61,461 nucleotides of DNA from a virus. The position numbers and the translations under genes were made by a program. The stretch's first letter is position 1, and each line of letters starts with the position of its first letter. This document shows positions 1 to 43,871 of the stretch, piece by piece. The DNA is taken from IMG/VR virus record IMGVR_UViG_3300042868_008304, positions 1 through 61,461 of that record. One strand, given 5' to 3'. The notes under the pieces are model-generated. The model did not search any database and was not told where the DNA came from. It saw only the letters and a list, made by a program, of their open reading frames with translations.

Positions 1-2051
1 GTCTTTCAGGAACATTAGGTATTAGCGGATTATCAGGTCAAGTTGGAATATCAGGTACTTCAGGTATTAGCGGTCTTTCAGGAACATTAGGTATATCAGG
101 ACTTTCAGGAACTATTGGTATCAGTGGATTATCAGGTACAATCGGTATTAGCGGACTTTCAGGTCAAGTTGGAATATCAGGTACTTCAGGAATTAGTGGT
201 CTTTCAGGAACATTAGGTATTTCAGGTTTATCAGGTCAAGTTGGAATATCAGGTACTTCAGGAATTAGTGGATTATCCGGTACAATCGGTATATCAGGAA
301 CTAGCGGTATTAGTGGACTTTCAGGAACATTAGGTATTAGCGGATTATCAGGTCAAGTTGGAATATCAGGTACTTCAGGTATTAGCGGTCTTTCAGGAAC
401 ATTAGGTATATCAGGACTTTCAGGAACTTCAGGTGTTAGCGGCATCTCAGGATTGTCTGGTAGAAGTGGTATTTCAGGTTTATCAGGAACTTTAGGTATA
501 TCAGGTTTATCAGGAACATTAGGTATTTCAGGACTTTCAGGAACTATTGGTATTAGCGGTTTATCAGGAACTTTAGGTATATCAGGTTTATCAGGAACTT
601 CAGGTCAAGTTGGAATATCAGGTATTAGTGGTTTATCAGGTAGAAGTGGTATTTCAGGTTTATCAGGAACTTTAGGTATATCAGGTTTATCAGGAACATT
701 AGGTATTTCAGGACTTTCAGGAACTATTGGTATTAGCGGTTTATCAGGAACTTTAGGTATATCAGGTTTATCAGGAACTTCAGGTCAAGTTGGAATATCA
801 GGTATTAGTGGTTTATCAGGTAGAAGTGGTATTTCAGGTTTAGTTGGGACATCAGGACTTAACGGTATAGACGGTGTTGCGGGAGCAAGTGGTTCTAGCG
901 GTTTATCAGGAACTTTAGGTATAAGCGGTTTATCAGGAACTTTAGGTATAAGCGGTTTATCAGGTCAAGTTGGAATATCAGGTTTATCAGGTCAAGTTGG
1001 AATATCAGGAACTTCAGGTATTAGCGGTTTATCAGGTAGAAGTGGTATTTCAGGTTTATCAGGAACTTTAGGTATAAGCGGTTTATCAGGAACTTTAGGT
1101 ATAAGCGGTTTATCAGGTCAAGTTGGAATATCAGGTTTATCAGGTCAAGTTGGAATATCAGGTTTATCAGGAACTTCAGGTAGAAGTGGTATTTCAGGAT
1201 TAGTAGGAACTAGCGGAACATCAGGTTTAGTTGGAATATCAGGATTAGTTGGAATATCAGGATTAGTTGGAATATCAGGTTTATCAGGTCAAGTTGGAAT
1301 ATCAGGTTTATCAGGAACTTCAGGTAGAAGTGGTATTTCAGGATTAGTAGGAACTAGCGGAACGTCAGGTTTAGTTGGAATATCAGGATTAGTTGGAATA
1401 TCAGGATTAGTTGGAATATCAGGTCGAGATGGTACCGGTACATCAGGTATTTCAGGTATTATAGGAACAGGAACAGCCGGAGCCTCAGGTATCTCAGGTA
1501 TTGCCGGTGGAGGTGGTGGTGGTTGCGCATTTGAATATGTGTTAGTTGCATCACACTCAGGTCAATTTACAGAAGATAGTTATTCTGCGACAGAATATTG
1601 GATTGGTGACGATAAATGCGGGTGGGACGCTTGTACACTTACGTTATCTAACAATGTTAAAGATAACCCAATTCTTCCTTTACAATACACTAACATCGGT
1701 ATACCTCTTCCTGTAAGTCCACCAGCGGGAGCAGTAATAACCTTTTGCGGTATCGCTTTTACCGAAGATGGTGATGTGGTTAATTTTGGTACTTATTTAG
1801 CTTTTTTCTCTTGTGCCAACCGTGACGGAAGTGGTGATTATCCTGTGACAACTTTATTTGACGATAGCACAACGAGTACTTTTGATGCGAAGACTACTTG
1901 TTTTTCTAATAGTTATACTGTAGTTGGAAATGAGGGATTACACAGTTGTGACCACTTTCTTATTGCTGGTATGAATGCGGATGGTGGGACCCCTAACTAT
2001 ACAATTAAATTTTCATATACTATTACAATAAAATATAGTTGTACTGAATAA
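1..2051 (+). CDS. Collagen-like repeat fibre protein, 5' end outside window
   Basis: The reading frame is open from base 3 with no stop, so the gene begins upstream of the window; the TTG at 453 is an internal codon, not a start. About 500 codons are Gly-X-Y triplets built from GLS, GTL, GIS, GQV, GTS and GRS units. The repeat has no proline, unlike most collagens. A Gly-rich hinge of seven glycines near 1507-1530 leads into a C-terminal globular domain of about 170 residues with eight or so cysteines (bases 1530-2048). This is the usual layout of a trimeric phage fibre: a long repetitive shaft and a C-terminal tip that could fold the trimer or bind the host. A strong terminator follows immediately. 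The DNA contains recent internal duplications. Which fibre it is cannot be told from this sequence. Confidence 0.85.
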   Translation, partial: LSGTLGISGLSGQVGISGTSGISGLSGTLGISGLSGTIGISGLSGTIGISGLSGQVGISGTSGISGLSGTLGISGLSGQVGISGTSGISGLSGTIGISGTSGISGLSGTLGISGLSGQVGISGTSGISGLSGTLGISGLSGTSGVSGISGLSGRSGISGLSGTLGISGLSGTLGISGLSGTIGISGLSGTLGISGLSGTSGQVGISGISGLSGRSGISGLSGTLGISGLSGTLGISGLSGTIGISGLSGTLGISGLSGTSGQVGISGISGLSGRSGISGLVGTSGLNGIDGVAGASGSSGLSGTLGISGLSGTLGISGLSGQVGISGLSGQVGISGTSGISGLSGRSGISGLSGTLGISGLSGTLGISGLSGQVGISGLSGQVGISGLSGTSGRSGISGLVGTSGTSGLVGISGLVGISGLVGISGLSGQVGISGLSGTSGRSGISGLVGTSGTSGLVGISGLVGISGLVGISGRDGTGTSGISGIIGTGTAGASGISGIAGGGGGGCAFEYVLVASHSGQFTEDSYSATEYWIGDDKCGWDACTLTLSNNVKDNPILPLQYTNIGIPLPVSPPAGAVITFCGIAFTEDGDVVNFGTYLAFFSCANRDGSGDYPVTTLFDDSTTSTFDAKTTCFSNSYTVVGNEGLHSCDHFLIAGMNADGGTPNYTIKFSYTITIKYSCTE
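459..842 (+). repeat. Perfect 180-bp tandem repeat in collagen-like gene
   Basis: Bases 459-842 have an exact period of 180 bp (60 codons, 20 Gly-X-Y triplets), giving 2.1 copies without a mismatch. Similar but imperfect repeats flank it, at 892-1010 versus 1051-1160 and at 1162-1290 versus 1309-1420. Perfect identity implies very recent duplication or ongoing slippage or recombination. Confidence 0.9.
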
Positions 2052-2060
2052 AATTAATAC

Positions 2061-2084
2061 CCCCACTTTTTAGTGGGGTTTTTT
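2061..2084 (+). terminator. Rho-independent terminator after fibre gene
   Basis: A 7-bp stem CCCCACT/AGTGGGG with a T-rich loop is followed by six T residues. It closes the collagen-like gene and separates it from the sugar operon. Confidence 0.85.
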
Positions 2085-2132: not shown

Positions 2133-2477
2133 ATGAGATTTTGTTTTGATGTTGATGGAACAATTGCTGAATTAAAAAAAGAGGGTGAACAATACCAAGA
2201 CGTTCTACCCAAAAAAGGTGCCGTTGAAACCTTAAAGAAATTAAGAGAAGACGGACATTACATAATTCTCCATACTGCGAGAAATATGCAAACTTACTCA
2301 GGAAATGTTGGGAAAGTAATCTCAGTTCAATCACCCATATTATTTGAATGGTTAAAGAAATATGATGTTCCTTATGATGAGGTATATTTTGGAAAACCAA
2401 GCGCCGATTTTTATGTCGACGATAAAGCAATAAGAATGAACGAGTGGGAGGACTTTGAATGGAAAAACCTAATGTAA
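2133..2477 (+). CDS. Small HAD-family phosphatase
   Basis: A 114-residue protein opening with FDVDGT, in which Asp6 and Asp8 match the HAD nucleophile and acid/base pair. HTAR near residue 50 fits motif II, and FYVDDKAI near residue 95 fits the C-terminal acidic motif. I chose the ATG at 2133, which places the HAD motif at the very N-terminus; an in-frame TTG at 2103 would add ten residues without family support. The next gene starts 19 bases before this one ends. Small HAD proteins of this type occur in capsule and heptose clusters. A GmhB-like 7-phosphatase role would suit the neighbours, but the protein is shorter than GmhB (about 190 residues) and may act on another sugar phosphate. Confidence 0.75.
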   Translation: MRFCFDVDGTIAELKKEGEQYQDVLPKKGAVETLKKLREDGHYIILHTARNMQTYSGNVGKVISVQSPILFEWLKKYDVPYDEVYFGKPSADFYVDDKAIRMNEWEDFEWKNLM

Positions 2478-2845
2478 TCAATGTAATTGAATGTGAGGGG
2501 TGTTGTGTCCCAAAAGGGTGGGGTAAAGAAATCATTATTGAGAATAATGAACTTTATTGTGGTAAATTGTTGTGCTTTGATAAAGGTGCAAAATTTTCAA
2601 TGCACTACCATATGATTAAAGACGAAACTTGGTATGTTGATAAAGGTGAGTTCATCTATAGATGGATTGATACCGAAACTGCTGAGGTGATTGAGAAAAT
2701 ATTAAAGGTTGGTGATACGGTTAGACAAAGACCGGGTCAACCCCACCAATTAGAGGCGTTATCTGATGGTGTAATCTTCGAGGTATCCACAACCCACGCT
2801 GATAGTGATTCTTATAGAGTATGGAAAGGAGATTCTCAAAAATGA
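2459..2845 (+). CDS. Cupin-fold protein, sugar isomerase-like
   Basis: A 128-residue single-domain cupin. The metal-binding histidine pair MHYH with DETWYV lies near residues 48-60, and the second motif, GQPHQLEAL, near residues 97-105. Arrangement and length resemble the C-terminal cupin of mannose-6-phosphate isomerase and small sugar-processing cupins such as WbuC. It overlaps the HAD gene upstream and is coupled to the adenylyltransferase downstream by an ATGA overlap at 2842-2845, so the proteins are probably made together. The substrate is not visible. A role as sugar-phosphate isomerase or epimerase in activated-sugar synthesis is inferred from context. Confidence 0.7.
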   Translation: MEKPNVINVIECEGCCVPKGWGKEIIIENNELYCGKLLCFDKGAKFSMHYHMIKDETWYVDKGEFIYRWIDTETAEVIEKILKVGDTVRQRPGQPHQLEALSDGVIFEVSTTHADSDSYRVWKGDSQK

Positions 2846-3225
2846 GAGTTTGGGTAAACGGAACATTTGATGTTCTTCATATTGGACATATTGAGTTATT
2901 AAAATTTGCAAGTATTTTTGGTAAAGTTAGAGTTGGTATTGATACAGATTCAAGGGTTAAACAATTCAAAGGAGATGGTCGACCGGTTAATACTTGGGAA
3001 GATAGGGTAAAATTAATGGAATCCATCCGTTATGTTTATGACGTGGTAGGATTCTCAACGGATGATGAATTAAGACAACAAATTAAAGATTGGGAAACTG
3101 ATGTTATGATTGTTGGTTCGGATTATAAAGATAAGAATGTCATTGGTTCTGAATTGGTTAAAGAGGTTATCTTCTTTGATAGAATCGAAGGGTATTCAAC
3201 AACAAATACATTAAATAATGTTTAG
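2842..3225 (+). CDS. hldE2-like: Heptose-1-phosphate adenylyltransferase (HldE C-domain-like)
   Basis: A 127-residue nucleotidyltransferase with NGTFDVLHIGH (His13 and His16 of the HxGH motif), FKGDGRPVN near residue 43 and GYSTTN near the C-terminus. These match from memory the order and wording of the C-terminal domain of bacterial HldE, which transfers AMP from ATP to D-glycero-beta-D-manno-heptose 1-phosphate. Glycerol-3-phosphate cytidylyltransferase is a relative, but RPVN and STTN favour HldE. The start at 2842 overlaps the upstream stop as ATGA; an in-frame ATG at 2821 lies inside the cupin gene and is less likely. An AAGGAG-like sequence about 10 bases upstream may help initiation. 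Confidence 0.8.
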   Translation: MRVWVNGTFDVLHIGHIELLKFASIFGKVRVGIDTDSRVKQFKGDGRPVNTWEDRVKLMESIRYVYDVVGFSTDDELRQQIKDWETDVMIVGSDYKDKNVIGSELVKEVIFFDRIEGYSTTNTLNNV

Positions 3226-3949
3226 AGTTTTAGTCGTAGGTGAAACCTGTATAGATAGGTTTATTTATAGTAAGGTTGAAAGGTTATCTCCTGAAGCTCC
3301 GGTTCCGGTTTTAATTCCGGTAGAAACAACCGAGAATAAAGGAATGTCGGGTAATGTTGTTGAGAATCTAAGGGCCTTGGGTGTTGATTATAATGATATC
3401 ACTCATTGGTGTCAATTTACTCCAATAACAAAAACAAGATATGTGGATAAAAAAAGTAACCATATGTTTATTCGAGTTGATGAGGGTGAAGATTTAGTGA
3501 AGGAGATTGATGATGTTAATATGAATCAATACTTTGATGTGATTATTGTTAGCGATTATAACAAAGGGTTTTTAGATGATAGTTTTTTAAAAGAACTTTG
3601 TACGATGGGAGGAATCACCATATTAGATTCAAAAAGAAAATTAACTCAGGACATTATTGATTGTTTTGATTTTGTTAAATTAAACGAACAAGAATTTAGA
3701 AATAACGAAGAGTTATTAAGGTGGGAAAATATATTAATAACATTGGGACCCAAAGGGACAATGTATCAAGGTATTGTTTATCCGAGTCCAAACCCCCAAG
3801 AAACGATAGACGTTAGTGGAGCGGGGGATACATTTACATCTTCATTTATATTAAAATATTATGAAACAAAAGATGTTAAAACGTCTATAATCTACGCAAA
3901 TGAAATGTCTTCAATTGTGGTATCAAAAAGGGGGGTGGCAACCCCATAG
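3218..3949 (+). CDS. hldE1-like: Heptose-7-phosphate kinase (HldE N-domain-like, PfkB)
   Basis: A 243-residue PfkB-family sugar kinase. RLSPEAPVPV at residues 22-31 is nearly the hallmark RISPEAPVPV of HldE. VSDYNKG near residue 110, LNEQEF near 155 and DVSGAGDTF at 198-206 (catalytic Asp in GAGD) complete the family pattern. HldE1 phosphorylates D-glycero-beta-D-manno-heptose 7-phosphate at O1, giving the substrate of the adenylyltransferase encoded just upstream. In bacteria both activities are usually fused kinase first; here they are separate and in reverse order, overlapping by 8 bases. The protein is shorter than a typical HldE kinase domain (about 315 residues), mainly through a compact central lid region. 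Confidence 0.8.
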   Translation: MFRVLVVGETCIDRFIYSKVERLSPEAPVPVLIPVETTENKGMSGNVVENLRALGVDYNDITHWCQFTPITKTRYVDKKSNHMFIRVDEGEDLVKEIDDVNMNQYFDVIIVSDYNKGFLDDSFLKELCTMGGITILDSKRKLTQDIIDCFDFVKLNEQEFRNNEELLRWENILITLGPKGTMYQGIVYPSPNPQETIDVSGAGDTFTSSFILKYYETKDVKTSIIYANEMSSIVVSKRGVATP

Positions 3950-3952
3950 AAT

Positions 3953-5236
3953 ATGAGAATTAAAAGTAGGTCAAATATTACAATAGTTATTCACACAGAA
4001 AACCAAGATAAATTAAAAAAACTTTTAAAAATTATTAAAAACTTTAAAAGTGAAGGGTATTTTTGTATTAACTTAAACGCTAAGGGATACATTCCTTGGG
4101 ATGATGAAGAGATTAAACAAAGTATTGTTAGTTTTGATAAATACAACGCCAACCCAACCGAAAAATTAAAAACAGATTCTATTGTTGAATTAATAACTAA
4201 AAGTGATACTGAGTTTATTTTAATTTTGGATGAAGATTGTTCGTCAATTAAATTGAACACTTTTGATGAAAAAATTGTTGAATCATTATATGGTGGTAAA
4301 CGAGATTTATTAGGGTTAAATATGGATTCAAAATACCAATCAGTTAAATGGTTTATTATTGATTTATTATCTCAAAAGAAACAAACTAAACTAAATTTTG
4401 TTGATGATAGTGAAGACTGTGTAAGATATAATAAAAAAATTGAGAATCCTATTTTTTACGATAAGATATTTTATCTTGATGGTGGAATAGGGGACCACGT
4501 TATGGCGTTACCATTATTAGAGAAAATTCATAAAAATTTTTACATTTGTTGTAAATATCCGGTGGTATTTGAACACTTAGAATTTAAGGGACATATTCAT
4601 TGGGATGATGAATTATTTGGTGGTTATAGAAGATTTGTTTACGAACAAGGTTCCACAAATAATTCTAAAACTATCGTGGATGCGTTTTTTGAGTTGTACG
4701 GTTATAAACGAACTAATACTGATGTTTTAACATATAATGGACGTAGAGAAAGTAACGGGATTCAAAACGAAGGTAAAAAAATTGCTCTTATTTGTAGTAG
4801 TGCCGCCAAAATAAACGATATCGATTCTAATAAAAATTGGAAGGAAATCAGATGGTTAAAATTAGTTAATGAACTACAACAAAGAGGTTACTATGTTGTT
4901 CAAGTTGGGTCTTTTAAAGATAATCAAATTCCAATGGTTGATTTAAAGTTTTTAGACCAACCATTACCTAAATTATCTTCACTAATAGATGAATGTTCAT
5001 TATGGATTAGTGTTGACACGTTCTTTCATCATTTTGCGTCGTCAATTAAACCTGAGGTTGGGATTTGTTTAACCCCATTTTATAACGACCACGCAAAACA
5101 TTCCGGTGTAAGATATGTTGAGAAAGATTGTGGTAAAGATTTTTCATCAAGAAAATGGTGGTTGGATTTACAACAACCTGAAAGAAAAGAATGTATGGAC
5201 TTAATCCAATTAGCTGATATTATTAATTTATTATGA
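3953..5236 (+). CDS. Two-domain glycosyltransferase with GT9 heptosyltransferase-like C-domain
   Basis: 427 residues. Residues 1-145 resemble a degenerate GT-A fold with an acidic LDEDCS motif near residue 97. From about residue 170 the protein looks like GT9 (ADP-heptose:LPS heptosyltransferase): YLDGGIGDHVMALPLLEKI corresponds to the family GGIGD...TPLL signature, and WISVDTFFHHFASSI near 351-365 to the conserved SVDTG..H.A segment. A heptosyltransferase directly behind an HldE pair supports the sugar being a heptose. Four bases separate it from the kinase stop, and it overlaps the next gene by four bases. The acceptor is unknown: host surface glycan or phage protein are both possible. Confidence 0.7.
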   Translation: MRIKSRSNITIVIHTENQDKLKKLLKIIKNFKSEGYFCINLNAKGYIPWDDEEIKQSIVSFDKYNANPTEKLKTDSIVELITKSDTEFILILDEDCSSIKLNTFDEKIVESLYGGKRDLLGLNMDSKYQSVKWFIIDLLSQKKQTKLNFVDDSEDCVRYNKKIENPIFYDKIFYLDGGIGDHVMALPLLEKIHKNFYICCKYPVVFEHLEFKGHIHWDDELFGGYRRFVYEQGSTNNSKTIVDAFFELYGYKRTNTDVLTYNGRRESNGIQNEGKKIALICSSAAKINDIDSNKNWKEIRWLKLVNELQQRGYYVVQVGSFKDNQIPMVDLKFLDQPLPKLSSLIDECSLWISVDTFFHHFASSIKPEVGICLTPFYNDHAKHSGVRYVEKDCGKDFSSRKWWLDLQQPERKECMDLIQLADIINLL

Positions 5237-6804
5237 TTAAAGTAAAATTTTTTTGTTCAGATGCCGAAATTAATAATATTGATAACTGGAGAATTCGTAT
5301 GCAATATTATGGAGATATTGAAGGCGTTGAAATTGAATATGATTTTTCTCCCACCATATCACAGGAAAATAAAATTAATTTTGATATAATTGTGATTACA
5401 AGACCATTATTAAGGTTTCTTGGATATATTAGATTTTTAAAAACGAAGGGTGTTAAAGTTATTGTTGATTATGACGACCCATTTCCGTTAGTGTTTGAAC
5501 CGGATAATTTATTATCACATTTAAACGAATCTATCCAAATTCTGAATGAAGCGGATTTGATAACAACAACAACTGAAAAATTAAAAACATATTTTTATTA
5601 TCATAGTTTTAATGATAAAATTAAAGTTTTACCAAATATAATTAATAAATCATTTATTTCAGAAAATAAACTTTATAATAATGATAAAGTGGTTTTAGGT
5701 TGGTTTGGTAATAATGGTCATTATGAATCTTTAAAAAAAATTAAAGATGTTATACTTAATATTCTAAATGAGTATGAAAACGTTTATTTTAATTTATATG
5801 GTACACAACCATTTTTTGACTTATTTGACCATCCAAGAGTGATAAAAATTCCATATGTTTTTAATTTTTCAGAATTCCAAAAAAATATTGGAGAAATTGA
5901 TATTAATTTGGCACCATTAATTGAAAATTATCATAATTTTTTTAAATCAAATATTAGAATTATTTTACCGGGATATAAAGGTATTCCTTCAGTAGCCGAC
6001 AACTTTTCAGAATACAAATTATTGGGTCGTGATAATGTTATTTTATGTGATAATAATGATGATTGGTATAACGGTATTAAAAATTTAATTAATGATTTAG
6101 ATTTAAGAAATAAAATAGGGTCAAATATACAGAAATACGTTACTGATAATTTAACATTTGATGTTTGGAAAACAGACAAATCAGAAATGTTCAAATCATT
6201 AGTTAAAATAAATAAAGAAAAAAATAATATTATGGAACATTTTTATCATAACATTGGGGAAGATTGGTTTTCTTACCCTAATTTATATTCATCAATGGTT
6301 GAAAAATTTGATGATGGGGCTCATTTTATTGAGGTTGGGGTTTGGAAAGGTAGAAGCGCATCTTATATGGGTGTTGAAATAAATAATTCAGGTAAAAATA
6401 TTAAATTTGATTGTGTGGATGTTTTTTCAGGTTCATCCGAACATTTAGACTCAAGTAGTCCATTTTTTAATCAAGAATTGTTAAAAGATAACGATTGGTT
6501 ATATAATGAATTTTTAAAAAATACTGAACCTATTAAACATATCGTCACACCTATTAAACAATTATCTTGGTTGGCTGCAGAATTATATGAAGACCATTCA
6601 GTTGATTTTGTTTTTATTGATGCTGCTCACGATTATGAGAGCGTAAAAAAAGACTTAAAAGCTTGGTTTCCAAAGATTAAAAAAGGTGGTGTGTTAGCCG
6701 GCCACGATTATCTATATTGGGAAGTTATTGATGCGGTAAATGAGTTCTTTGGTGAAAATAAAATAGAAGTTAAAGAAGGTTGCTGGATTTACGAAAAAAA
6801 ATAA
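5233..6804 (+). CDS. Glycosyltransferase-methyltransferase fusion
   Basis: 523 residues in two halves. Residues 1-325 look like a GT-B (GT4-like) glycosyltransferase, with VLGWFGNNGHYESL near 153 and a C-terminal Rossmann-like segment containing GIPSVADNFSEY. Residues 336-523 form a class I SAM methyltransferase of the Methyltransf_24 type: FIEVGVWKGRSASYMG near 364 binds SAM, and FIDAAHDYESVKKD near 461 and AGHDY near 490 are the family's later motifs. The methyltransferase half is a close paralogue of the C-terminal half of the next gene, including a 53-bp stretch of identical DNA. Methylating enzymes fused to transferases commonly cap or modify glycan chains; acceptor and sugar are unknown. 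Confidence 0.7.
   Translation: MIKVKFFCSDAEINNIDNWRIRMQYYGDIEGVEIEYDFSPTISQENKINFDIIVITRPLLRFLGYIRFLKTKGVKVIVDYDDPFPLVFEPDNLLSHLNESIQILNEADLITTTTEKLKTYFYYHSFNDKIKVLPNIINKSFISENKLYNNDKVVLGWFGNNGHYESLKKIKDVILNILNEYENVYFNLYGTQPFFDLFDHPRVIKIPYVFNFSEFQKNIGEIDINLAPLIENYHNFFKSNIRIILPGYKGIPSVADNFSEYKLLGRDNVILCDNNDDWYNGIKNLINDLDLRNKIGSNIQKYVTDNLTFDVWKTDKSEMFKSLVKINKEKNNIMEHFYHNIGEDWFSYPNLYSSMVEKFDDGAHFIEVGVWKGRSASYMGVEINNSGKNIKFDCVDVFSGSSEHLDSSSPFFNQELLKDNDWLYNEFLKNTEPIKHIVTPIKQLSWLAAELYEDHSVDFVFIDAAHDYESVKKDLKAWFPKIKKGGVLAGHDYLYWEVIDAVNEFFGENKIEVKEGCWIYEKK
6364..6416 (+). repeat. 53-bp exact direct repeat, copy 1
   Basis: Identical base for base to 7705-7757. It encodes the post-SAM-motif segment of the Methyltransf_24 domain and marks a recent duplication or gene conversion. 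Confidence 0.9.
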
Positions 6805-6810
6805 AAAAAT

Positions 6811-8130
6811 ATGAAAAAAATTATCACATACCATAACGAAGGATTCAATGGTTACATAAAAGATGGGAATTTGGTTATTGGTCCCGAAACAAAATCACCG
6901 AAATGGTGGTTAGATGAAGATTGTGAAGAGTCTTTCCAATTTTTTGATTTAGATGGATTTTATAATGAAGATTATTTTAAAGATGACCACGTTCCTGATT
7001 TTATTGCAAATAACTATGTTTTATATGTTTTACATTATTTCAAAGAAATAAGTGGTAAAGATTTAAAAAGTGTTTTAGAAATAGGGAGTGCTGGTGGTTG
7101 GTTTACTAAAAAATTTATGGACTATGGACTAGAAATTTTGGGAGTGGAAGGTTCTGAATGTGGATATAGGGCTTGTTTAGAAAGAGGTTTATCTGAATCA
7201 CAGATACTTAAAAAAGATTTTAGAAATCCAATTAAATTAGATAAAAAATATGATATAGTATGTTGTACTGAAGTTGCTGAACATATTGAAATACCATTTT
7301 CAGGGACTTTAATTAAAACATTAACCGATAATTCTGATATGGTTTGGTTTTCATCCGTATCGCCCGGTTTATTAGGTATACCACCAACTTATGACCATTG
7401 TAATGAGCAACCTGATAAATTTTGGATTAATCTTTTTGATTTTTTTAACTATGGTTATATTAAATTATCCGATGAAGTTTATAATAATACTCATTTAAGA
7501 GGTAGATATGTTTTTTATAATAGAAATGTTTATAATGTAGAAGGTGAATCGTCTCAGAAAGAATATAAAAAAATAAACCACTTTTATCAGAATATTGGTG
7601 AGGATTGGTTTGGACATTCAAATTTTTATTCTGAAATAGTAAACAAATTTCCGGATGGTTCTCATTTTGTGGAGGTCGGTGTTTGGAAAGGAAGAGGAGC
7701 ATCATATATGGGTGTTGAAATAAATAATTCAGGTAAAAATATTAAATTTGATTGTGTCGATACTTGGGAATATATTGATTCTCAAAATGACATCTCTAAA
7801 GATTCATATGAAAATCTTTATGATATTTTTTTAAAAAATATAGAACCTGTTAAACATATTATTAATCCAGTTAAATTATTATCAACTGACGCGGCAAAAA
7901 AATATGAAGACAATTCGTTAGATTTTGTTTTTGTTGATGCTGCTCACGATTATACAAATGTTAAAAACGATATTGAAGCTTGGTTCCCAAAGATTAAAGT
8001 TGGAGGTATTATTGCCGGTCACGATTATAATACATCGATTGACGGAGTTAAAAAAGCGGTTGATGAATTTTTTAATGAAAAAAATATAATAAATAAAGAA
8101 AACTGTTGGATATACGAAAAAATTAAATAA
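6811..8130 (+). CDS. Tandem methyltransferase protein
   Basis: 439 residues with two SAM-dependent methyltransferase domains. The N-terminal one has VLEIGSAGGWFTKKF near residue 88 and CCTEVAEHIE near 150, typical of Methyltransf_23-like (UbiG-type) enzymes. The C-terminal one, from residue 257, has FVEVGVWKGRGASYMG near 286, FVDAAHDYTNVKND near 373 and AGHDY, and is the paralogue of the C-terminal domain of the gene upstream. Both copies keep the motif residues, so both could be active. The gene sits six bases after its neighbour in the same operon. A role in methylating sugars or sugar-modified proteins is inferred only from the surrounding transferases. Confidence 0.7.
   Translation: MKKIITYHNEGFNGYIKDGNLVIGPETKSPKWWLDEDCEESFQFFDLDGFYNEDYFKDDHVPDFIANNYVLYVLHYFKEISGKDLKSVLEIGSAGGWFTKKFMDYGLEILGVEGSECGYRACLERGLSESQILKKDFRNPIKLDKKYDIVCCTEVAEHIEIPFSGTLIKTLTDNSDMVWFSSVSPGLLGIPPTYDHCNEQPDKFWINLFDFFNYGYIKLSDEVYNNTHLRGRYVFYNRNVYNVEGESSQKEYKKINHFYQNIGEDWFGHSNFYSEIVNKFPDGSHFVEVGVWKGRGASYMGVEINNSGKNIKFDCVDTWEYIDSQNDISKDSYENLYDIFLKNIEPVKHIINPVKLLSTDAAKKYEDNSLDFVFVDAAHDYTNVKNDIEAWFPKIKVGGIIAGHDYNTSIDGVKKAVDEFFNEKNIINKENCWIYEKIK
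7705..7757 (+). repeat. 53-bp exact direct repeat, copy 2
   Basis: The partner of 6364-6416, in the homologous position of the second Methyltransf_24 domain. Confidence 0.9.
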
Positions 8131-8133
8131 AAT

Positions 8134-11100
8134 ATGAGAGATTATAAAGTAATAGACACGTTTATATTTGGAGGAGAATTAGAAATTTTAAAAATGAGAT
8201 TGGATTATTTATATGATTCCGTTGATTATTTTATTTTTTCCGAAAGTAATAAAACTCACAATGGAACGACTAAAGATTTGACTTACCTACAAAACATTAA
8301 TATGTTTGAAAGTTATAAAGATAAAATTCATTACGTGGTTTTTGACCCCGATATAACAAACCTTAATCTTTCAGTTACTCCGGAGGATATATTCAAATCT
8401 GACCTTTGGAAATTAGAAAGGGCACAAAGAAGTGAAGTCCACAGTAAAGTTATGGAATTATCAGACCAATCAACAATGATTTTACATTCTGATTGTGATG
8501 AATTTCCTGACAAATTAAAATTTAATGAATTAAGAGAAATGACTAAAGATTTATTTTTAGAAGTAGTATCTTTAGGTCAACCAACATATTACTATTCTCC
8601 ATTAAATTTATTAGAGATTAATTGGTATGGAACCGTCGCTTTTAATCATCAAACATTAATTAATTTAACAGATTATTTTTCAGTTAGAGAAAATAGATTT
8701 CAATCAAAGCATTTAGAAAATTCTGGATGGCATTTTTCGTTTTTTGTATCACCTGAAGAAATCCAACATAAAATACAAACATACGCTCATCAAGAATATA
8801 ATGTTCCGGAAATTGTCAACATAGAAACAATTAAATATAACATTTATAATGGTTTAGATGTATTAAATAGACCTGACGTTATAATAAAAAAATTAGACAA
8901 AATTAGTGGGGATTTCCCAATAGAATTTTATAGACACGAGTTATTTTTTAAAAACACGTTTGATAGAGTTTATTTAAAACCTCAAACCAAATTAAGAAAA
9001 AATGGGTCAATGCAAATTCCATTAGAAATTGAAAATTTACAACTTAGTGTTGCAAACCAACAACCTAAAATTATTGTTGAAATTGGGACAGCTAACGGAG
9101 GGACATTATCAAGATGGTTTGAAATTCCTTCTGCTGAAATTGTTATAAGTATTGATTTACCAATCGGTATTCACGGAGGACAAGGGTTTGAAGAAAGAAC
9201 TTATGTTATATCTGACGCATTAGAACAAGCTAATTTAACAAATAAAAAATTCTTTGCAATTAATGGAAATTCAAAAGATTATTATATTGTTGAACGATTA
9301 AGAGAAATTTTAAATGGTGAAAAAATTGATTTTTTATTTATAGATGGTGACCACACATATGAGGGTGTTAAAGGTGATTATGAATTATATGAACAATTTT
9401 TAAATGAAAACTCAATTGTTGGTTTTCACGATATTATTAATAGTGAATATCACGCAGAACATAATTGTTTTGTTTCAACATTTTGGTCTGAAATAAAAAA
9501 ACAATATGAAAGTGTTGAGTTTGTATACACTAATTTATTAGATAAGAATATTTTGGAATTTTTCTACAACATATCAAACCATAAAGGTGGGTTTGGGGGA
9601 ATTGGGTATATTGAACACTCAAAAAAAAAAGACTTTAGTGGTAATATCTCATTAGTAGTTCCAATTTACAATAATGTTGATGATACAATTAATAATGTAT
9701 CGTTAACTTTATCAACTTCAAAATATATTGATGAAGTTATTTTATACTCAAACGGAACTGACCAATATGGTAATGAAAAATTAAAAACATTTTCACAATC
9801 AAATTCAATAATTAAATTACACATTGTTGATAAACCTATTGGATTTATTAAGGCAGTTAATGAGTCATTTAAACTATCTAAAAACGAATTTATTTTATGT
9901 TTAAATAGTGACGCCGCTTTATATCACAATTGGGAAGATATGTTGATACCATTTCTTAACGATGATTTAAATGGTATTATCGGACCAGTTAAAGTTAGAG
10001 ACTTTATTTTAGGTTGTTGTTACATTGTTAAAAAATCAATATTAAACCAAATTGGTCTGTTAAATGAAGGATTTGGTCTTGGGTATTGTGATGATGTTGA
10101 ATTTTCAAATAGAGTTGAGATGAATGGTTATAAGTTAGGTTATTGTGAATTTAAAGATGATTTTGGATGGACAGAATCTGTTAATTTTCCAATATATCAT
10201 AGACAAGGTTCATCGTTTGAATTATTAGAAGATGAAACTAAAACTAATTTAAATGAGAGAAATGAAATTAAATATCATAAATTTATTAATACCAAAAAAG
10301 TTGTTATTTTAAAAGATTTAAATTATGACGATATAAAATCATTATTAAATAATGAAGAAGTCTTTATTGTTGTTAACAAATCAGGAGATAATTTTGAAAA
10401 AATTAGATATGATAAAGAAATTATTGAATTATCTAATATTTTTGAATGTACAAATGATATGGATATTAATCAAATAATTAATTCAGTTGCAAAAGGAAAA
10501 GAAATTGAGTTTAGAACAAATAAAAAAATAATTAAAGATAATATGAATAGAGTTGACATCATTAACTCATTGATTGAAAAACACAATTATAATTCTTATT
10601 TAGAAATTGGTGTTAATAATCCGGATAATTGTTTAAACCATATTAATTGTGATTTAAAACACGGGGTTGACCCTGGCGTTGAAGGTTATTATCCTGTCAC
10701 ATATAATATGACTTCAGATGAATTTTTTAAAATAAACACATTAACATACGATATTATCTTTATTGATGGACTACATATCGATGAACAAGTTGAAAAAGAT
10801 ATATATAATAGTTTAAGTATTTTAAATAAAAATGGGACAATTGTTTTACACGATTGTAATCCTCCACAAATTTATCACGCTAGAGAAGATTATGGTGATA
10901 AATCAACACCTGTTGGTGATTATTGGACCGGAACATCTTGGAAAGCGTTTGTTAAAGTTAGATGCGAAATTGATAATATTTACGCAAGTGTTGTTGATAC
11001 AGATTGGGGTGTTGGAATTATACAATATTCAGAAACACCAAATAAAATAATTAATGATAATCCATATTTTTCTTACAATAAATTTGCTGAAAATAGAGAG

Positions 11101-12930
11101 AAGTATCTTAATTTAATTTCAACAGAAGAATTCATTAATCAATATATCGATGAGATACCAAATAAAAAAAAAAGATTAACTTGGTTAGCAAAATATGATG
11201 ATTACGCGTCAATGGGTATTTTATCTCAGAAGATTCTTCAAAATCTAAAAACAACCGATGTGTCTTGTAAAGAAATTATTGGGGTTACAGAAACTAAAAA
11301 CGAGTTAATTCACAAATTAATTAAAAAACCAATTAATCACGATTTGGGGATTATGTTTGCTTATCCCGACATTATTGGTGAATTAAAACAATTTAATACT
11401 AAGGTTATTTACACTGGTGTTGACACCACAGAAGGAATACCAAATTATACAACAAACATTAATCAATCGGATTATATTTTAACCCCATCCAACTTATCGA
11501 AAGATAGAATGATTAAAATGGGTGTAACAAAACCAATCTTTGTATTCCCTCACGGAATTGAGAAAAATGAATTTACCTACAAACCAAGAGTGATGGGTGA
11601 TAAGTTCAAATTCCTTTATGTTGGGGAATGTAGTGATAGAAAGGGTGTTTTTCATTTATTAAGAGCATTTACTGAACTATATAAAAACAATCCAAATGTT
11701 GAGTTACATTTAAAATCAAACTCAGCAATGTTATTTTATGGGGGTGATAAAGTTCAAAAATATGTGGACGAAAACTCAAACATATTTTGGGATAAATCGG
11801 ATACAGGTCACGAAAGAACTTTAGAATTATATAACGAATGTCACGTTTATGTTTATCCATCAAGAGCCGACACTTTTGGTATGACAATATTAGAAGCTAT
11901 GGGATGTGGTTTACCTGTAATTTCAACATCAGAACCAGGTGTAACTGAATTAGTTAAGGGGATGTATATAGACATACCGACCAATGAGGTTCCTGTGGTA
12001 GGACATCCTTGGATGACAGGAAATTGGGGTGAACCAAATTACCTAATGTTACAACTTCAAATGCGAACAATACAAGAGAATTATAGTGATTTTTCAAATC
12101 CGGAAAAATTAAAAAAAATCTCAGAGTTTGTTAATGAAAATTATTGTTGGGAAAAAATTACCGAGAATTTTGAAAAAAATATTTTACCTAAACTAACTAA
12201 AGAGGTTAAAATTATAACATTATTAACGTCATATAAAAGACCACATCATATTAAAAATGTAATTAATTCTTTAAAAGATGTTAGAGAAGATGGGTATACT
12301 AACGATATATATATTGTTGACAATACAAATGATGATTCAAAAGATGAAGTTACTAAAATTATTAATGAAAACATTGATGATAATTTTACCTTATATTCTT
12401 CAAGTTTTAATTTAGGTCAACGAGGGGCGCTCCTTCAAATGTTAGATGATATTAACATTGATGAGTATGATTTTATTCAATTCACTGACCAAGATAATTT
12501 ATTATTAGAACCATTGAGTACTTATTGTAACATTTTAAATGAGAATCAAGAAATATTTTTTGCAACAGGATATATGAGTAAAGAACACAATGAACTTGGG
12601 TGGAGAAAAACACGATTCGGTAATCTATGTGAAAAACGTTCTTTAAGGGCGGGACATATGTTTATGAGGGTGAGTGATTTAAAAAGTTTATTACCAATTC
12701 ATTTAGATGGTCAACACGGACAACCACATAATTCTTCTTGGTATGCAGGATTAGATTGGGAAGTGTCTTATTGGAATCCTAATTCACCGGGAAGAACAAG
12801 TAATAAAAATTTTGTGTTATGTGTTCCGGGTGGTGTATTACATAAAGGTGTTGATAGCACATTTTATGAATGGGATGTTGAGGATAATGAATATAGTTTA
12901 GAAGAGTTACAAAATATGAGACAAAAATAA
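8134..12930 (+). CDS. Giant six-domain glycosyltransferase/methyltransferase
   Basis: 1598 residues. In order: (1) about 1-285, GT17-like (beta-1,4-GlcNAc-transferase family), with FSESNKTHNG near 37 and SDCDEF near 120; (2) about 310-470, Methyltransf_24, with VEIGTANGG and FIDGDHTYEGV; (3) about 505-700, GT2, with SLVVPIYNN, LNSDAA near 590 and a GYCDDVEFSNR acceptor-site motif; (4) about 805-950, a second methyltransferase, with LEIGVNNPD and FIDGLHID; (5) about 1060-1355, GT4, with FLYVGECSDRKGV and the donor-binding DTFGMTILEAMGCGLP near 1247; (6) about 1358-1598, GT2-like, with LLTSYKRP and FTDQDN. Such an assembly could build and cap an oligosaccharide on one polypeptide. No stop, frameshift or membrane segment is apparent, so it is probably a soluble enzyme. 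Confidence 0.8.
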   Translation: MRDYKVIDTFIFGGELEILKMRLDYLYDSVDYFIFSESNKTHNGTTKDLTYLQNINMFESYKDKIHYVVFDPDITNLNLSVTPEDIFKSDLWKLERAQRSEVHSKVMELSDQSTMILHSDCDEFPDKLKFNELREMTKDLFLEVVSLGQPTYYYSPLNLLEINWYGTVAFNHQTLINLTDYFSVRENRFQSKHLENSGWHFSFFVSPEEIQHKIQTYAHQEYNVPEIVNIETIKYNIYNGLDVLNRPDVIIKKLDKISGDFPIEFYRHELFFKNTFDRVYLKPQTKLRKNGSMQIPLEIENLQLSVANQQPKIIVEIGTANGGTLSRWFEIPSAEIVISIDLPIGIHGGQGFEERTYVISDALEQANLTNKKFFAINGNSKDYYIVERLREILNGEKIDFLFIDGDHTYEGVKGDYELYEQFLNENSIVGFHDIINSEYHAEHNCFVSTFWSEIKKQYESVEFVYTNLLDKNILEFFYNISNHKGGFGGIGYIEHSKKKDFSGNISLVVPIYNNVDDTINNVSLTLSTSKYIDEVILYSNGTDQYGNEKLKTFSQSNSIIKLHIVDKPIGFIKAVNESFKLSKNEFILCLNSDAALYHNWEDMLIPFLNDDLNGIIGPVKVRDFILGCCYIVKKSILNQIGLLNEGFGLGYCDDVEFSNRVEMNGYKLGYCEFKDDFGWTESVNFPIYHRQGSSFELLEDETKTNLNERNEIKYHKFINTKKVVILKDLNYDDIKSLLNNEEVFIVVNKSGDNFEKIRYDKEIIELSNIFECTNDMDINQIINSVAKGKEIEFRTNKKIIKDNMNRVDIINSLIEKHNYNSYLEIGVNNPDNCLNHINCDLKHGVDPGVEGYYPVTYNMTSDEFFKINTLTYDIIFIDGLHIDEQVEKDIYNSLSILNKNGTIVLHDCNPPQIYHAREDYGDKSTPVGDYWTGTSWKAFVKVRCEIDNIYASVVDTDWGVGIIQYSETPNKIINDNPYFSYNKFAENREKYLNLISTEEFINQYIDEIPNKKKRLTWLAKYDDYASMGILSQKILQNLKTTDVSCKEIIGVTETKNELIHKLIKKPINHDLGIMFAYPDIIGELKQFNTKVIYTGVDTTEGIPNYTTNINQSDYILTPSNLSKDRMIKMGVTKPIFVFPHGIEKNEFTYKPRVMGDKFKFLYVGECSDRKGVFHLLRAFTELYKNNPNVELHLKSNSAMLFYGGDKVQKYVDENSNIFWDKSDTGHERTLELYNECHVYVYPSRADTFGMTILEAMGCGLPVISTSEPGVTELVKGMYIDIPTNEVPVVGHPWMTGNWGEPNYLMLQLQMRTIQENYSDFSNPEKLKKISEFVNENYCWEKITENFEKNILPKLTKEVKIITLLTSYKRPHHIKNVINSLKDVREDGYTNDIYIVDNTNDDSKDEVTKIINENIDDNFTLYSSSFNLGQRGALLQMLDDINIDEYDFIQFTDQDNLLLEPLSTYCNILNENQEIFFATGYMSKEHNELGWRKTRFGNLCEKRSLRAGHMFMRVSDLKSLLPIHLDGQHGQPHNSSWYAGLDWEVSYWNPNSPGRTSNKNFVLCVPGGVLHKGVDSTFYEWDVEDNEYSLEELQNMRQK

Positions 12931-13174: not shown

Positions 13175-16100
13175 ATGCAAGTAATACAAATCACAAGTTT
13201 AACAGGACACTCTCCTTATGATATTACAATTTGTGATATTACAAACACTTATTGTTATTTAGGTGTTTCAGGTGCAACATCAGCTCCTTTAACAATTAAT
13301 ATTCCAACAGAACTTATTAATGTTGATGAAGTATTAGTTGTAATTACTGATTCTTTAGGTTGTTCAGAACTTCAGTATCATAATTGTGACGACCCAAAAC
13401 CTTCACAAACACCAACATCTACACTAACTCCGACACCAACAAAAGCCGCGTGTAATTGTATATCCTTTGAAAACACTTCGGGGGTAACTTTAACGTATAA
13501 TTACATAAATTGTGATGGAGAATCTTTTTATGGTGCGATATATTCCGCAACAACATTATTTGTTTGTGGAAGTAACCCATATGCTGATAGTGGTGTGACA
13601 ATCAATATCTCTTCAGATATTTGTATTAATAATGAATGTCCGGGACCGACACCAACTCCAACACCAACTCCAACAATTACACCAACATTACCACCTATTG
13701 TGGGATATTTTGAAGATAGTTGTGACCCTTCAAATCAATTTACATTATCTAACATACCAATATCATTCAGTCCTTTATCAGGGGCTTATTATATTGAGAG
13801 TGATGGATTTGTTGGTTGTGCAACTTATGTTGTAAGTTCATCGACCAATAATGTTTATTCATTCATTGCAATGGGTTCTCAACCAAGTATTCTTCATTGT
13901 CAAAGAGCCAATTTTATCTATCCGTGCCCAACGGCAACTCCAACACCAACACCATCGGCAACTCCTTGTATTGGTTGTAGAAATTATATTTTATATGGTG
14001 GTTCTGGTAAAGGAGGAAATTCAACATTTCAATATATACCTTGTGGGGGTAGTTCATCAATCAATATTAATATTCCAAGAAGTGATAGTGGTTCAGAGTT
14101 TACTCAAAATATCTGTGCGGAGTGTAATAGTGTTTATAAATTAACCACTAGTGGAAGTTATGGAATTACGGGACCTTGTCCTACACCGACACCAACCTCA
14201 ACACTTACACCGACACCAACACCAACAACACCGGTCAAATATATCTTATTCCAAGCACAATCTTGTTGTACTAAAAAAATCATAAAATATATAATGTTAC
14301 CGTCAACATTCTTACCCGGAACGGCAATTGTTAATTCATTTGGGGAATGTTTACAAATAATTGATAAATCTCCGGGAAAAGCGTGGATAACTGATTATTG
14401 GAACCACTCAACAACATATGTAGATTGTGAGTTATGTATTAAATATCAAACTTGTGACCCAATAGCACCTTTACCATTTATTTCTGTATGGACAACAACA
14501 TCTTCTAACGAAACTATTAATTTACCATATGCGTCTTCCGGGTTTTATTATGGGACAATTGATTGGGGTGATGGAACTATTACTACTAATGATTATGTTA
14601 ATAGGTCACACATTTATGGAACTCCGGGAACATATACGATAACAATAACTGGAACATTAATTGGTTGGAGTTTTGGGTTATATTCGTCAAATGCGTTAAA
14701 CATTGTTGAGGTATTACAATGGGGTTGTTTGCAATTAGGAAATTCAGGTTTTAATTTTGTCAATTGTCAAAATTTAACATTAAATAATGTTAGTGATGTT
14801 TTAAATTTATCAGAAACAAATAGTTTATACTCAACATTCTCCGATTGTAATAGTTTAACTACAATAAATAATGTTAATTCTTGGGATACATCGACTATAA
14901 CCAATATGGTTAATACTTTTGTTTATTGTTATAATTTTAATGATGACATCAGTAATTGGGATGTTAGTAACGTTACTGATTTTGGTGGAATGTTTGATAA
15001 CGCAAGTTCATTTAATCAACCAATTGGTATTTGGGATACGTCTAGCTCTCTTAGTATGGGTAATATGTTTTTTGTTTGTACAAATTTTAATCAGGATTTA
15101 AGTAATTGGAATGTGTCAAATGTGACTGATATGAACAATATGTTTAATAGTTGTATTCAATTTAATAATGGAGGTTCCCCATCTATTAATAGTTGGTTAA
15201 CATCTAATGTTACAAATATGGCGGGTATGTTTCTCTCCACTCCATTTAATCAACCAATTGATAGTTGGGACACATCAAGTGTAATTTATACGTCGTTTAT
15301 GTTTTATAATGCAACCCAATTTAATCAATCATTAAATTCTTGGGATGTAAGTAATGTTATTAATATGTCGTATATGTTTTATTTGGCAACGTCGTTTAAT
15401 CAACCTTTAAATTCTTGGGATGTTGGTAATGTTACAAATATGTCGTATATGTTTAACGAAGCAACGTCGTTTAATCAACCACTAAATAATTGGGTTGTAT
15501 CGAATGTTACAAATATGACTAGTATGTTTAGGGGGGCACAATTATTTAATCAAAACATTGGTGGTTGGGATGTTAGTAGTGTGACTACTATGTCGTTGAT
15601 GCTTCAAGGCTCACCATCGGCTAACTCATTTAATAATGGTGGTTCACCATCAATAAGTGGTTGGTCAACATCAAACGTTACTAGTATGTTTGGGATGTTT
15701 AATGCGTCCTTATTTAATCAAAATATTGGAAATTGGGATGTTAGTAATGTTACTAATTTTGGTGGTATGTTTTTAGGAACACCGTTTAATAATGGTGGTT
15801 CACCATCAATTAGTGGTTGGACAATTAATACCTCAATTAATGGTATCAGTATGTATATAATGTTTGGATTTTCAGCATTTAATCAACCTATAGGTTCGTG
15901 GAATGTCTCAAAGGTTACGGGTATGTCTGAAATGTTTAGGTCAGCATTTTCATTCAATCAAAATATTGGTGGTTGGAATGTTAGTGGTGTTACTGATTTT
16001 AGTAATTTTATGCAAAGTAAAACATTTTCGGATTATTCAACAACAAATTTAGATGCAATATACAATGGATGGAGTACGTTACCTTCACTACAACCATTTA

Positions 16101-16207
16101 TTAATATTAATTTTGGGACTATTAAATATACTGCAGGTGGTTCGTCAGGAAAAGCCATACTTCAAGGACCTCCAAATAATTGGTCAATTTCAGACGGAGG
16201 TATATAA
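13175..16207 (+). CDS. Cys-module, PKD and BspA-like (DUF285) repeat virion protein
   Basis: 1010 residues. The N-terminal 430 hold four small Cys-rich modules (about 13448-13643, 13696-13928, 13969-14178 and 14234-14460) separated by Thr-Pro linkers (near 13408, 13649, 13930 and 14178). A PKD-like or BspA leader domain follows, with IDWGDGT near residue 462. From about residue 560 to 980 the chain is a run of roughly 25-residue DUF285 repeats of the form FNQPLNSWDVSNVTNMSYMF. DUF285 proteins are typical bacterial surface adhesins, so this is best read as a phage display protein for binding host surfaces or particles. It lacks a signal peptide, consistent with a virion rather than a secreted protein. 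It has the same module types as the 20884 and 24217 genes. Confidence 0.75.
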   Translation: MQVIQITSLTGHSPYDITICDITNTYCYLGVSGATSAPLTINIPTELINVDEVLVVITDSLGCSELQYHNCDDPKPSQTPTSTLTPTPTKAACNCISFENTSGVTLTYNYINCDGESFYGAIYSATTLFVCGSNPYADSGVTINISSDICINNECPGPTPTPTPTPTITPTLPPIVGYFEDSCDPSNQFTLSNIPISFSPLSGAYYIESDGFVGCATYVVSSSTNNVYSFIAMGSQPSILHCQRANFIYPCPTATPTPTPSATPCIGCRNYILYGGSGKGGNSTFQYIPCGGSSSININIPRSDSGSEFTQNICAECNSVYKLTTSGSYGITGPCPTPTPTSTLTPTPTPTTPVKYILFQAQSCCTKKIIKYIMLPSTFLPGTAIVNSFGECLQIIDKSPGKAWITDYWNHSTTYVDCELCIKYQTCDPIAPLPFISVWTTTSSNETINLPYASSGFYYGTIDWGDGTITTNDYVNRSHIYGTPGTYTITITGTLIGWSFGLYSSNALNIVEVLQWGCLQLGNSGFNFVNCQNLTLNNVSDVLNLSETNSLYSTFSDCNSLTTINNVNSWDTSTITNMVNTFVYCYNFNDDISNWDVSNVTDFGGMFDNASSFNQPIGIWDTSSSLSMGNMFFVCTNFNQDLSNWNVSNVTDMNNMFNSCIQFNNGGSPSINSWLTSNVTNMAGMFLSTPFNQPIDSWDTSSVIYTSFMFYNATQFNQSLNSWDVSNVINMSYMFYLATSFNQPLNSWDVGNVTNMSYMFNEATSFNQPLNNWVVSNVTNMTSMFRGAQLFNQNIGGWDVSSVTTMSLMLQGSPSANSFNNGGSPSISGWSTSNVTSMFGMFNASLFNQNIGNWDVSNVTNFGGMFLGTPFNNGGSPSISGWTINTSINGISMYIMFGFSAFNQPIGSWNVSKVTGMSEMFRSAFSFNQNIGGWNVSGVTDFSNFMQSKTFSDYSTTNLDAIYNGWSTLPSLQPFININFGTIKYTAGGSSGKAILQGPPNNWSISDGGI
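14850..16110 (+). repeat. DUF285 (BspA-like) coding repeats
   Basis: About 14 tandem units of 60-80 bp encode FNQ...WDVSNVTNM...MF. Several share exact short stretches; the 20 bases beginning gcaacgtcgtttaatc occur at both 15387 and 15462. Units vary, including insertions of an NNGGSPSI segment. Confidence 0.85.
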
Positions 16208-43200: not shown

Positions 43201-43871
43201 TAATTTACCCTCAAGAGGCAATAAATAACTTAGAAACTACAGGAGTCGACTCTAACTATACCGCAACATACTACCCTTGGGTATTAACAAGAGATAGTGT
43301 TAACAATACACAAATCTACTTACCACCAACGGCAGAAGTTGTTAGAAACTTAGCGTTAACCGACAACATCGCTTTCCCTTGGTTCGCGGCGGCAGGTTAC
43401 ACAAGAGGTATCGTAAACGCAATCAAAGCGAGAAAGAAACTTACTCAAGAAGATAGAGACACCCTTTACCAAGGACGTATCAATCCAATTGCAACTTTCT
43501 CTGATGTTGGGACGGTAATTTGGGGTAATAAAACACTACAAGTGGCTCAATCGGCACTTGATAGAATAAACGTAAGAAGATTATTACTTCAAGCTCGTAA
43601 ATTGATTTCAGCGGTATCTGTAAGATTATTGTTTGAACAAAACGACCAAAAAGTAAGACAAGACTTCTTAGACGCGGTTAACCCTATCTTGGATGCTATC
43701 AGAAGAGACAGAGGTTTATATGATTTCCGAGTTACAGTATCGTCAGATACGGCTGATTTAGATAGAAATCAAATGACAGGTAAGATTTACATCAAACCAA
43801 CCAAATCGTTAGAATTTATAGACATTACGTTCTATATTACTCCAACAGGAGCTTCTTTCGAGAATATATAA
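40278..43871 (+). CDS. 18-like: Tail sheath protein, gp18-like, enlarged
   Basis: 1197 residues, against 659 for T4 gp18. The N-terminus (FVSPGVYTSEVDLSF, then GIVGETQKGPAFEP) and C-terminus (FPWFAAAGYTRGIV near 1034, RRLLLQARKLI, LYDFRVTVSSDTAD, MTGKIYIKPTKSLEFIDITFYI) are classic contractile sheath core motifs. Roughly residues 115-540 form an insertion with paired cysteines and at least one immunoglobulin-like stretch (SNCSSFYSFSVLGVAG to VEIQNPCNPL). Sheath insertions map to the outer surface in known structures, so this probably adds knobs to the tail. An A-rich leader without a Shine-Dalgarno sequence precedes the ATG. A hairpin follows the stop. Confidence 0.9.
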   Translation: MATNSKVFVSPGVYTSEVDLSFVAQSVGVTTLGIVGETQKGPAFEPIFIRNFDEFSTFFGGTSPEKFINTQIPKYEASYIAKSYLQQSNQLFVTRILGLSGYDAGPSWSFRTIANVDKTTVDFDCSGSTYDFTSCESICTGYTEYSFTLPFTGCNNDISSVVFGAFTGDESIITNKFNETYENFNGTSSTIISDFQQQVFNVIVSSTTLSTSATSLYCYGTILGDDYDNLVSIGYTNVTNVFDVNNVDSHLADYTAPENDPWYYALFDNNNGSYTGSSYYTVIDTLGQSSTSSNCSSFYSFSVLGVAGSINYNNSTISVVLPFATFSGTNLSTIVPTFSACCTGVTVNLSAQTSNVSVVNFSTGAVTYLLIPNDGSSTGTSFNVTVEIQNPCNPLTSGNTGNYTSGSIKTCYTGSVRGSVYVYTGTSYTDFDDLILATLRSRGIATYGAGSDGPTYQVNDVTDVTMNCTGGYSSIGKNPYSEFGLNITDKDNNTFFFETSFSESDSKYLPKVFGSSNFAKPRTTVPLFVEERFQTLLNYGYNKGYIRGINCNLVGLPRANNSNNDMSSIAFYLEKYQTPSSPWVVSELRGSKVYNLFRFTTVSDGDDANTEVKISIANMSFGNLTFDILVRDFYDTDNNPVVIEKFTNCSMNPQDNAFVGQKIGTADGEYALNSKYIMVEMNEDAPIDALPCGFQGFRFRNYATSRPPFPIYKTKYDYPGEVVFDPPFGLSSGSNLAIQSPGDNVRRTYLGISTGYGAGYDPDFFQYKGKQLPLDLCTAVEGNDWTYKTRGFHMDVNASSIVYPGTSNPEFFVGDAPFTSDPDSEVSPYYRIYSRKFSLLVQGGFDGWDIYRESRTNTDTFKLGRRGYLNGACTSIQYPTATGWGAFKKITVGKNNVDWANTDYYAYLLGQQTFSNPEAVNINLFVTPGIDYVNNSDLVEDAIEMIEFNRADSLYVCTTPDIDLFMPTVNLATDLIYPQEAINNLETTGVDSNYTATYYPWVLTRDSVNNTQIYLPPTAEVVRNLALTDNIAFPWFAAAGYTRGIVNAIKARKKLTQEDRDTLYQGRINPIATFSDVGTVIWGNKTLQVAQSALDRINVRRLLLQARKLISAVSVRLLFEQNDQKVRQDFLDAVNPILDAIRRDRGLYDFRVTVSSDTADLDRNQMTGKIYIKPTKSLEFIDITFYITPTGASFENI

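Follow-up and report, generated by a model that had tools for sequence, protein, structure and literature searches.

A phage operon with a compact HldA-like kinase: a probable ADP-heptose-type sugar-nucleotide cassette

Known pathways and the phage operon

The bacterial ADP-heptose pathway comprises GmhA, HldA, GmhB, HldC, and HldD, or the fused HldE. In phages, PfkB kinases, HIGH nucleotidyltransferases, cupins, and HAD phosphatases occur together in glycan clusters of cyanophages (PMC7824862), rfaE has been reported from pelagimyophages (PMC7029224), and GenBank labels some of these cassette genes as ADP-heptose enzymes. Considered here is a five-gene operon at positions 2133 to 5236 of the IMG/VR virus record IMGVR_UViG_3300042868_008304, analysed over its whole 61,461 bases (the window; G+C 31.7%), which also encodes contractile-tail sheath and tube genes. 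Because of the HldE-type ranking of its genes against hidden Markov models (HMMs), the HldA fold of its kinase, and the gene context in phages and metagenome-assembled genomes (MAGs), the operon is best read as a phage ADP-heptose-type sugar-nucleotide cassette, a reading that we hold to be fairly probable.

The genes run, all on the plus strand, in the order HAD phosphatase, cupin, nucleotidyltransferase, kinase, and GT9-like glycosyltransferase; each overlaps or almost touches the next, and the gene after the GT9-like one starts at 5233, so that the coordinates bear out an earlier reading of the DNA letters (the sequence-only reading) in placing the five genes in one tightly packed operon. 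The family matches are far beyond chance: in Pfam, PfkB (E-value 2.7e-15), CTP_transf_like (1e-14), Cupin_2 (6.5e-8), and Glyco_transf_9 (2.2e-6); in TIGRFAM, TIGR02198 for the kinase (6.4e-34), TIGR02199 for the nucleotidyltransferase (8.9e-25), and TIGR01689 for the HAD protein (3.1e-27).

Parts of this cassette have been described before in cyanophages, and the window holds a variant. Cassette T4-GC 304-308 of P-SSM2, S-CAM1, S-SSM7, S-SM2, and P-TIM68 (outlined in PMC7824862) has the same four families, often near tail-fibre genes. Its gene order is different, and it includes an HldD-like epimerase as well as, frequently, carbamoyltransferases or 2-oxoglutarate oxygenases; the window has the GT9-like gene as an extra and a collagen-like gene next to the operon. 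With the bacterial pathway the window shares an HldA-like kinase, an HldC-like nucleotidyltransferase, and a HAD phosphatase; it differs in that the kinase belongs to a short clade, the HAD protein is not of the GmhB type, GmhA and HldD are lacking, and a cupin is present. In a literature search of partial coverage, no work was found that assigns pathway steps to the cassette or addresses the absent GmhA or the short kinase clade, and a search on phage ADP-heptose as such turned up work on host receptors. The assignment given here offers stepwise, testable roles for a cassette common among aquatic T4-like phages that had only been sketched; it predicts a non-orthologous GmhA and a compact HldA subfamily common to phages and Patescibacteria.

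Kinase, nucleotidyltransferase, and HAD phosphatase

The kinase (3218..3949, plus strand; 243 residues; PHROG 8133) has as its best curated model the HldE kinase domain TIGR02198, at 117.5 bits against an equivalog cut-off of 345; ribokinase, at 38 bits, is ruled out by score. Its structure model has a mean predicted local distance difference test score (pLDDT) of 93.2 (alignments for structure models left out rows from annotated phage records), and the top seven PDB matches are all Burkholderia cenocepacia HldA, with query TM-scores of 0.62-0.76; as modelled, the protein shows the HldA fold.

Compared with 52 canonical sequences, the window kinase and its short relatives have lost a tail of 13 residues and, behind residue 58 of the window protein, a unit of 26 residues in which the canonical GxD lies. 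The other positions conserved in the canonical set are nearly all kept (K72, R74, R86, D88, SDYxKG, and GAGD), and 29 residues are invariant across all 73 aligned short kinases. A tree separates these 73 from 17 canonical kinases with support of 100/100 and places the window kinase outside the canonical HldA/HldE clade. Judged by sequence, the kinase is a member of a distinct compact subfamily, HldE-like by kinship. The sequence-only reading had taken the two activating enzymes for a split HldE; both do match the HldE halves best, and the motifs that it quoted can be confirmed: the kinase has RLSPEAPVPV and DVSGAGDTF, and the nucleotidyltransferase has HIGH, RPVN, and STTN. The separate short clade of the kinase nevertheless rules out half of an ordinary split HldE. 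Short kinases from Patescibacteria nest within the phage-rich clade, which suggests gene transfer between phages and Patescibacteria.

The predicted substrate of the kinase is heptose-7-phosphate, and the strongest evidence that the short-kinase clade may handle this compound comes from its gene context in MAGs. In three MAGs of Patescibacteria type (L098, L109, and L113) one contig carries the short kinase together with gmhA (184-206 bits), gmhB (158-177 bits), an hldD-like gene (238-258 bits), and an hldC-like gene, which in L098 scores 181.2 bits against a cut-off of 181.5; searches of these MAGs turned up no second kinase of the HldA type.

The nucleotidyltransferase (ATG at 2842, 2842..3225, plus strand; 127 residues; PHROG 7878), whose open reading frame extends upstream to 2821, matches TIGR02199 best, at 87.2 bits against an equivalog cut-off of 181.5, followed by the glycerol-3-phosphate cytidylyltransferase model TIGR01518 at 66 bits. 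TIGR02199 is matched by each of the ten relatives and gives a better E-value there than any other family, and the HxGH and STT motifs appear as HIGH and YSTTN; as TIGR02199 scores better in the window and its relatives alike, membership of the glycerol-3-phosphate cytidylyltransferase family is rejected by score. The sequence-only reading would have been refuted by HMMs that placed the two activating enzymes firmly with other sugar families, such as those of glycerol or ribose; it withstands this check, for HldE ranks first with both, although below the equivalog cut-offs. In two loci (L075, 10687-11457; L117, 10641-11435) nucleotidyltransferase and HAD matches fall within one open frame, likely a fusion, and because they share a frame the two steps appear to be linked.

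The HAD protein (ATG at 2133, 2133..2477, plus strand; 114 residues; PHROG 1238) is best matched by the capsule phosphatase model TIGR01689 (EcbF/BcbF), at 95 bits against a cut-off of 162; all 11 relatives match the same model and conserve DxDGT, T48/R50, K88, and D97. The GmhB models NF006506 and TIGR00213 are absent among the matches of the window HAD protein, and NF006506 has no match in 14 phage records. The HAD phosphatase of the sequence-only reading is thus present, as an EcbF/BcbF type rather than GmhB, and is a candidate for the GmhB step. Since kinase, nucleotidyltransferase, and HAD protein all score below their equivalog cut-offs, family membership is not claimed for them.

The cassette is widespread in T4-like phages: P-SSM2, S-CAM1, S-SSM7, S-SM2, P-TIM68, S-T4, and Sf-FS3 have all four families. 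Within 10 kb of the kinase in 90 kinase-fetched phage loci (locus lists hold the best 80 matches) lie a nucleotidyltransferase (56 loci), a cupin (47), a HAD protein (40), and an HldD-like epimerase (24), and some records with the kinase alone at the locus encode a nucleotidyltransferase elsewhere. The HldD-like epimerases adjoining phage cassettes reach 240 bits against the TIGR02197 cut-off of 274.6 and share an HKGxxAS motif with bacterial HldD; in the two tested, HldD scores far above GalE (210 against 52 bits in P-SSM2). In six of these phages (P-SSM2, S-SM2, S-CAM1, P-TIM68, S-SSM7, and S-T4; L005-L010) RefSeq calls the HAD protein 'phosphoheptose isomerase' and the cupin 'cysteine dioxygenase', which does not fit their families; such names look wrong and may mislead lists of viral metabolic genes.

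The cupin and the absent GmhA

The sequence-only reading had placed GmhA and HldD outside the window, in the host or in distant phage genes. In other phages an HldD-like gene does form part of the cassette; none was seen among the window genes, and a search of large records from close relatives gave none either. GmhA (TIGR00441) was found in none of 51 carrier records, in a search whose controls were detected, nor within 10 kb of the short kinase in any of the 90 phage loci; the search did not extend to the host of the window phage. Because GmhA, the usual first enzyme, is absent, the cupin may perform the first step.

The cupin (2459..2845, plus strand; 128 residues; PHROG 7851) scores 32.6 bits with Cupin_2, over the cut-off, and has the metal-site motifs HxHx4E and PGxPH, with H49, H51, E56, and H96 invariant. 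The best PDB match of its model (pLDDT 88.8) is a D-lyxose isomerase (7NZP); non-isomerase cupins follow close behind, and oxalate decarboxylase, KdgF, and WbuC match about as well as isomerases. It shares fold and metal-site motif with cupin sugar isomerases (7NZP and the type II mannose-6-phosphate isomerases) but only about 22% identity; the latter family is matched weakly by 8 of 29 cupin relatives, and the window protein lies below the isomerase family cut-offs (Lyx_isomer, 19.1 against 20.8 bits; MannoseP_isomer, 16.3 against 23.6).

A strict replacement of GmhA by the cupin has points on both sides. The two genes come near to mutual exclusion: among 26 genome loci the cupin is found in nine and GmhA in five, with both in one, where the GmhA match is weak. 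One locus (L114), sister to three GmhA-bearing loci, has the cupin beside HldD and the nucleotidyltransferase and lacks GmhA; because it also lacks GmhB and the cassette HAD protein, the swap is not a clean one. Cupins outside the cassette weaken the case: in 37 of the best 80 cupin-fetched loci, many of them short fragments, no kinase, nucleotidyltransferase, or HAD gene lies nearby, and several cupin-bearing records of 112-219 kb lack kinase and nucleotidyltransferase entirely. Because many phages thus carry the cupin without the cassette, its candidacy as an isomerase is weakened, and a ketose/aldose isomerase standing in for GmhA is put forward only tentatively, as a candidate that is less likely than not to be right.

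In one 112 kb record, L212, a cupin gene whose product shares about 72% identity with that of the window is flanked by genes for an FAD-type oxidoreductase and a nucleotide-kinase-like protein (8339-10923); the record has no cassette kinase or nucleotidyltransferase.

Product, acceptor, and neighbouring genes

In the proposed pathway the cupin would convert a host ketose phosphate, for example sedoheptulose-7-phosphate, to an aldose 7-phosphate; the short kinase would phosphorylate C1, the HAD phosphatase would remove the C7 phosphate, and the HldC-like nucleotidyltransferase would add AMP, giving ADP-heptose or a close analogue. As neither the window nor the large records searched from close relatives contained an HldD-like epimerase, the product in this phage would stay unepimerised; many other phages add the epimerase. 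A glycosyltransferase, perhaps the GT9-like one or another from the downstream block, would then transfer the sugar to a surface structure that the phage itself makes, for which the adjoining collagen-like fibre is the likeliest candidate. That the whole scheme holds together (cupin for GmhA, EcbF-type HAD protein for GmhB, compact kinase for HldA, host sedoheptulose-7-phosphate as the source sugar, and glycosylated collagen-like virion fibres, even in hosts whose lipopolysaccharide (LPS) lacks heptose) is rather unlikely.

The case for a heptosyltransferase is weak. The GT9-like protein (3953..5236, plus strand; 427 residues) shares the PF01075 region with the GT9 heptosyltransferases WaaC, WaaF, and WaaQ, at 27.6 bits against a gathering score of 22, over residues 245-366 only; its N-terminal part is unmatched. 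Its scores with the heptosyltransferase I/III and RfaQ equivalogs are 12.8-15.4 bits against cut-offs of 170-467, and a PDB sequence search gave no relative. Among cassette loci its HMM matched only the window and L002, so it is no fixed cassette partner, and five further records, all fragments, have a homologue without the kinase. Of the activated heptose that the sequence-only reading had the operon make and transfer, synthesis thus gains from the HldE-type ranking and from HldD, GmhA, GmhB, and HldC partners elsewhere; the heptosyltransferase retains its GT9 family and fold match, and naming it so from adjacency is a guess.

As acceptor, a virion fibre is favoured because a collagen-like neighbour is conserved in two arrangements among close relatives. 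The collagen-like gene directly 5' of the cassette (453..2051, plus strand; PF01391, 156.7 bits) lies upstream on the same strand in the window and in L002, and downstream on the opposite strand in L013, L014, L015, L172, L173, L175, and L176, making eight close relatives in which it adjoins the cassette. Across the 90 phage loci such a gene is found in four, which confines this support for fibre decoration to the present clade.

The sugar might instead go to host LPS or capsule and block other phages, an alternative compatible with an ADP-heptose product, to which we give a real but minority chance. Such a change of the host surface has been proposed for the glycan clusters of cyanophages (PMC7824862) and pelagimyophages (PMC7029224). 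The LPS of marine Synechococcus has no heptose (PMC4515613), yet phages of this host carry some of the fullest cassettes, which makes the LPS core an unlikely sink there; cassettes also adjoin tail-fibre or collagen-like genes. Heptose-type glycans are predicted in phages whose hosts lack heptose in their LPS. The role of ADP-heptose in animal innate immunity, which the sequence-only reading had raised, draws no support from the context; neither the phage nor its relatives could be linked to an animal-associated host.

Several observations weigh against an ADP-heptose-type product, beginning with the cut-off shortfalls of kinase, nucleotidyltransferase, and HAD protein and with the cupins outside the cassette. 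No HAD match adjoining the cassette was found in several close relatives, and the three MAGs with gmhA are incomplete and have further enzymes, of the two kinds named next, in their short-kinase operons. A zinc-dependent alcohol dehydrogenase and a thiamine diphosphate (TPP) enzyme resembling pyruvate dehydrogenase E1 both lie beside the short kinase in 16 of the 26 genome loci, nine of which have no nucleotidyltransferase, cupin, or HAD gene nearby, and the E1-like gene is found in 16 of the 90 phage loci. Since short kinases also keep this company, another kinase substrate is possible: the same enzymes may activate a non-heptose phosphosugar, built in some lineages by the TPP enzyme and alcohol dehydrogenase, into a non-heptose ADP- or CDP-sugar. 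The scores well under the HldA and HldC cut-offs, the many substrates on which the cupin, HAD, and nucleotidyltransferase families act, and the E1-like and dehydrogenase genes, which S-SM2 and P-TIM68 among other phages also carry, all favour this alternative; the HldD-like epimerase in phage cassettes, the gmhA, gmhB, hldC, and hldD genes on the contigs of three MAGs, and the HldA residues retained in the short kinase speak against it, and we regard it as less likely than the heptose reading. CDP-glycerol or another CDP-polyol as the product of the nucleotidyltransferase, with the kinase unrelated to that enzyme, is very improbable: TIGR01518 is the enzyme's second-best model and cytidylyltransferases rank high in PDB sequence searches, but TIGR02199 is matched by each of the ten relatives and has a better E-value than TIGR01518, and the gene travels with the HldA-like kinase.

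In Patescibacteria MAGs (L092-L116) and in the loci L006 and L008 the short kinase follows an operon of the E1-like and alcohol dehydrogenase genes.

Between the collagen-like gene and the cassette, a pattern scan marks a terminator-like hairpin with a T run (2061..2078, plus strand); with four such sites observed against 3.3 expected from shuffles, its role as a terminator is only suggestive, and a promoter scan gave a count not above that of shuffled sequences. Downstream, glycosyltransferase and methyltransferase genes continue on the plus strand at 5233-6804, 6811-8130, and 8134-12930, with Methyltransf_24, GT17, GT2, and GT1/GT4 domains; the last encodes a 1598-residue protein that combines GT17, methyltransferase, GT2, and GT1/GT4 domains. 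Comparisons of tail sheath and helicase pointed to no clear host for the phage; the named phage nearest by tail sheath is a Microcystis phage, at 32%. The sheath itself (40278-43871) is unusually long at 1197 residues, and known sheaths match its C-terminal part only. Amid the glycosyltransferase genes, 13175-16204 encodes a likely surface adhesin, which has five DUF285 repeats as well as linkers rich in Thr and Pro.

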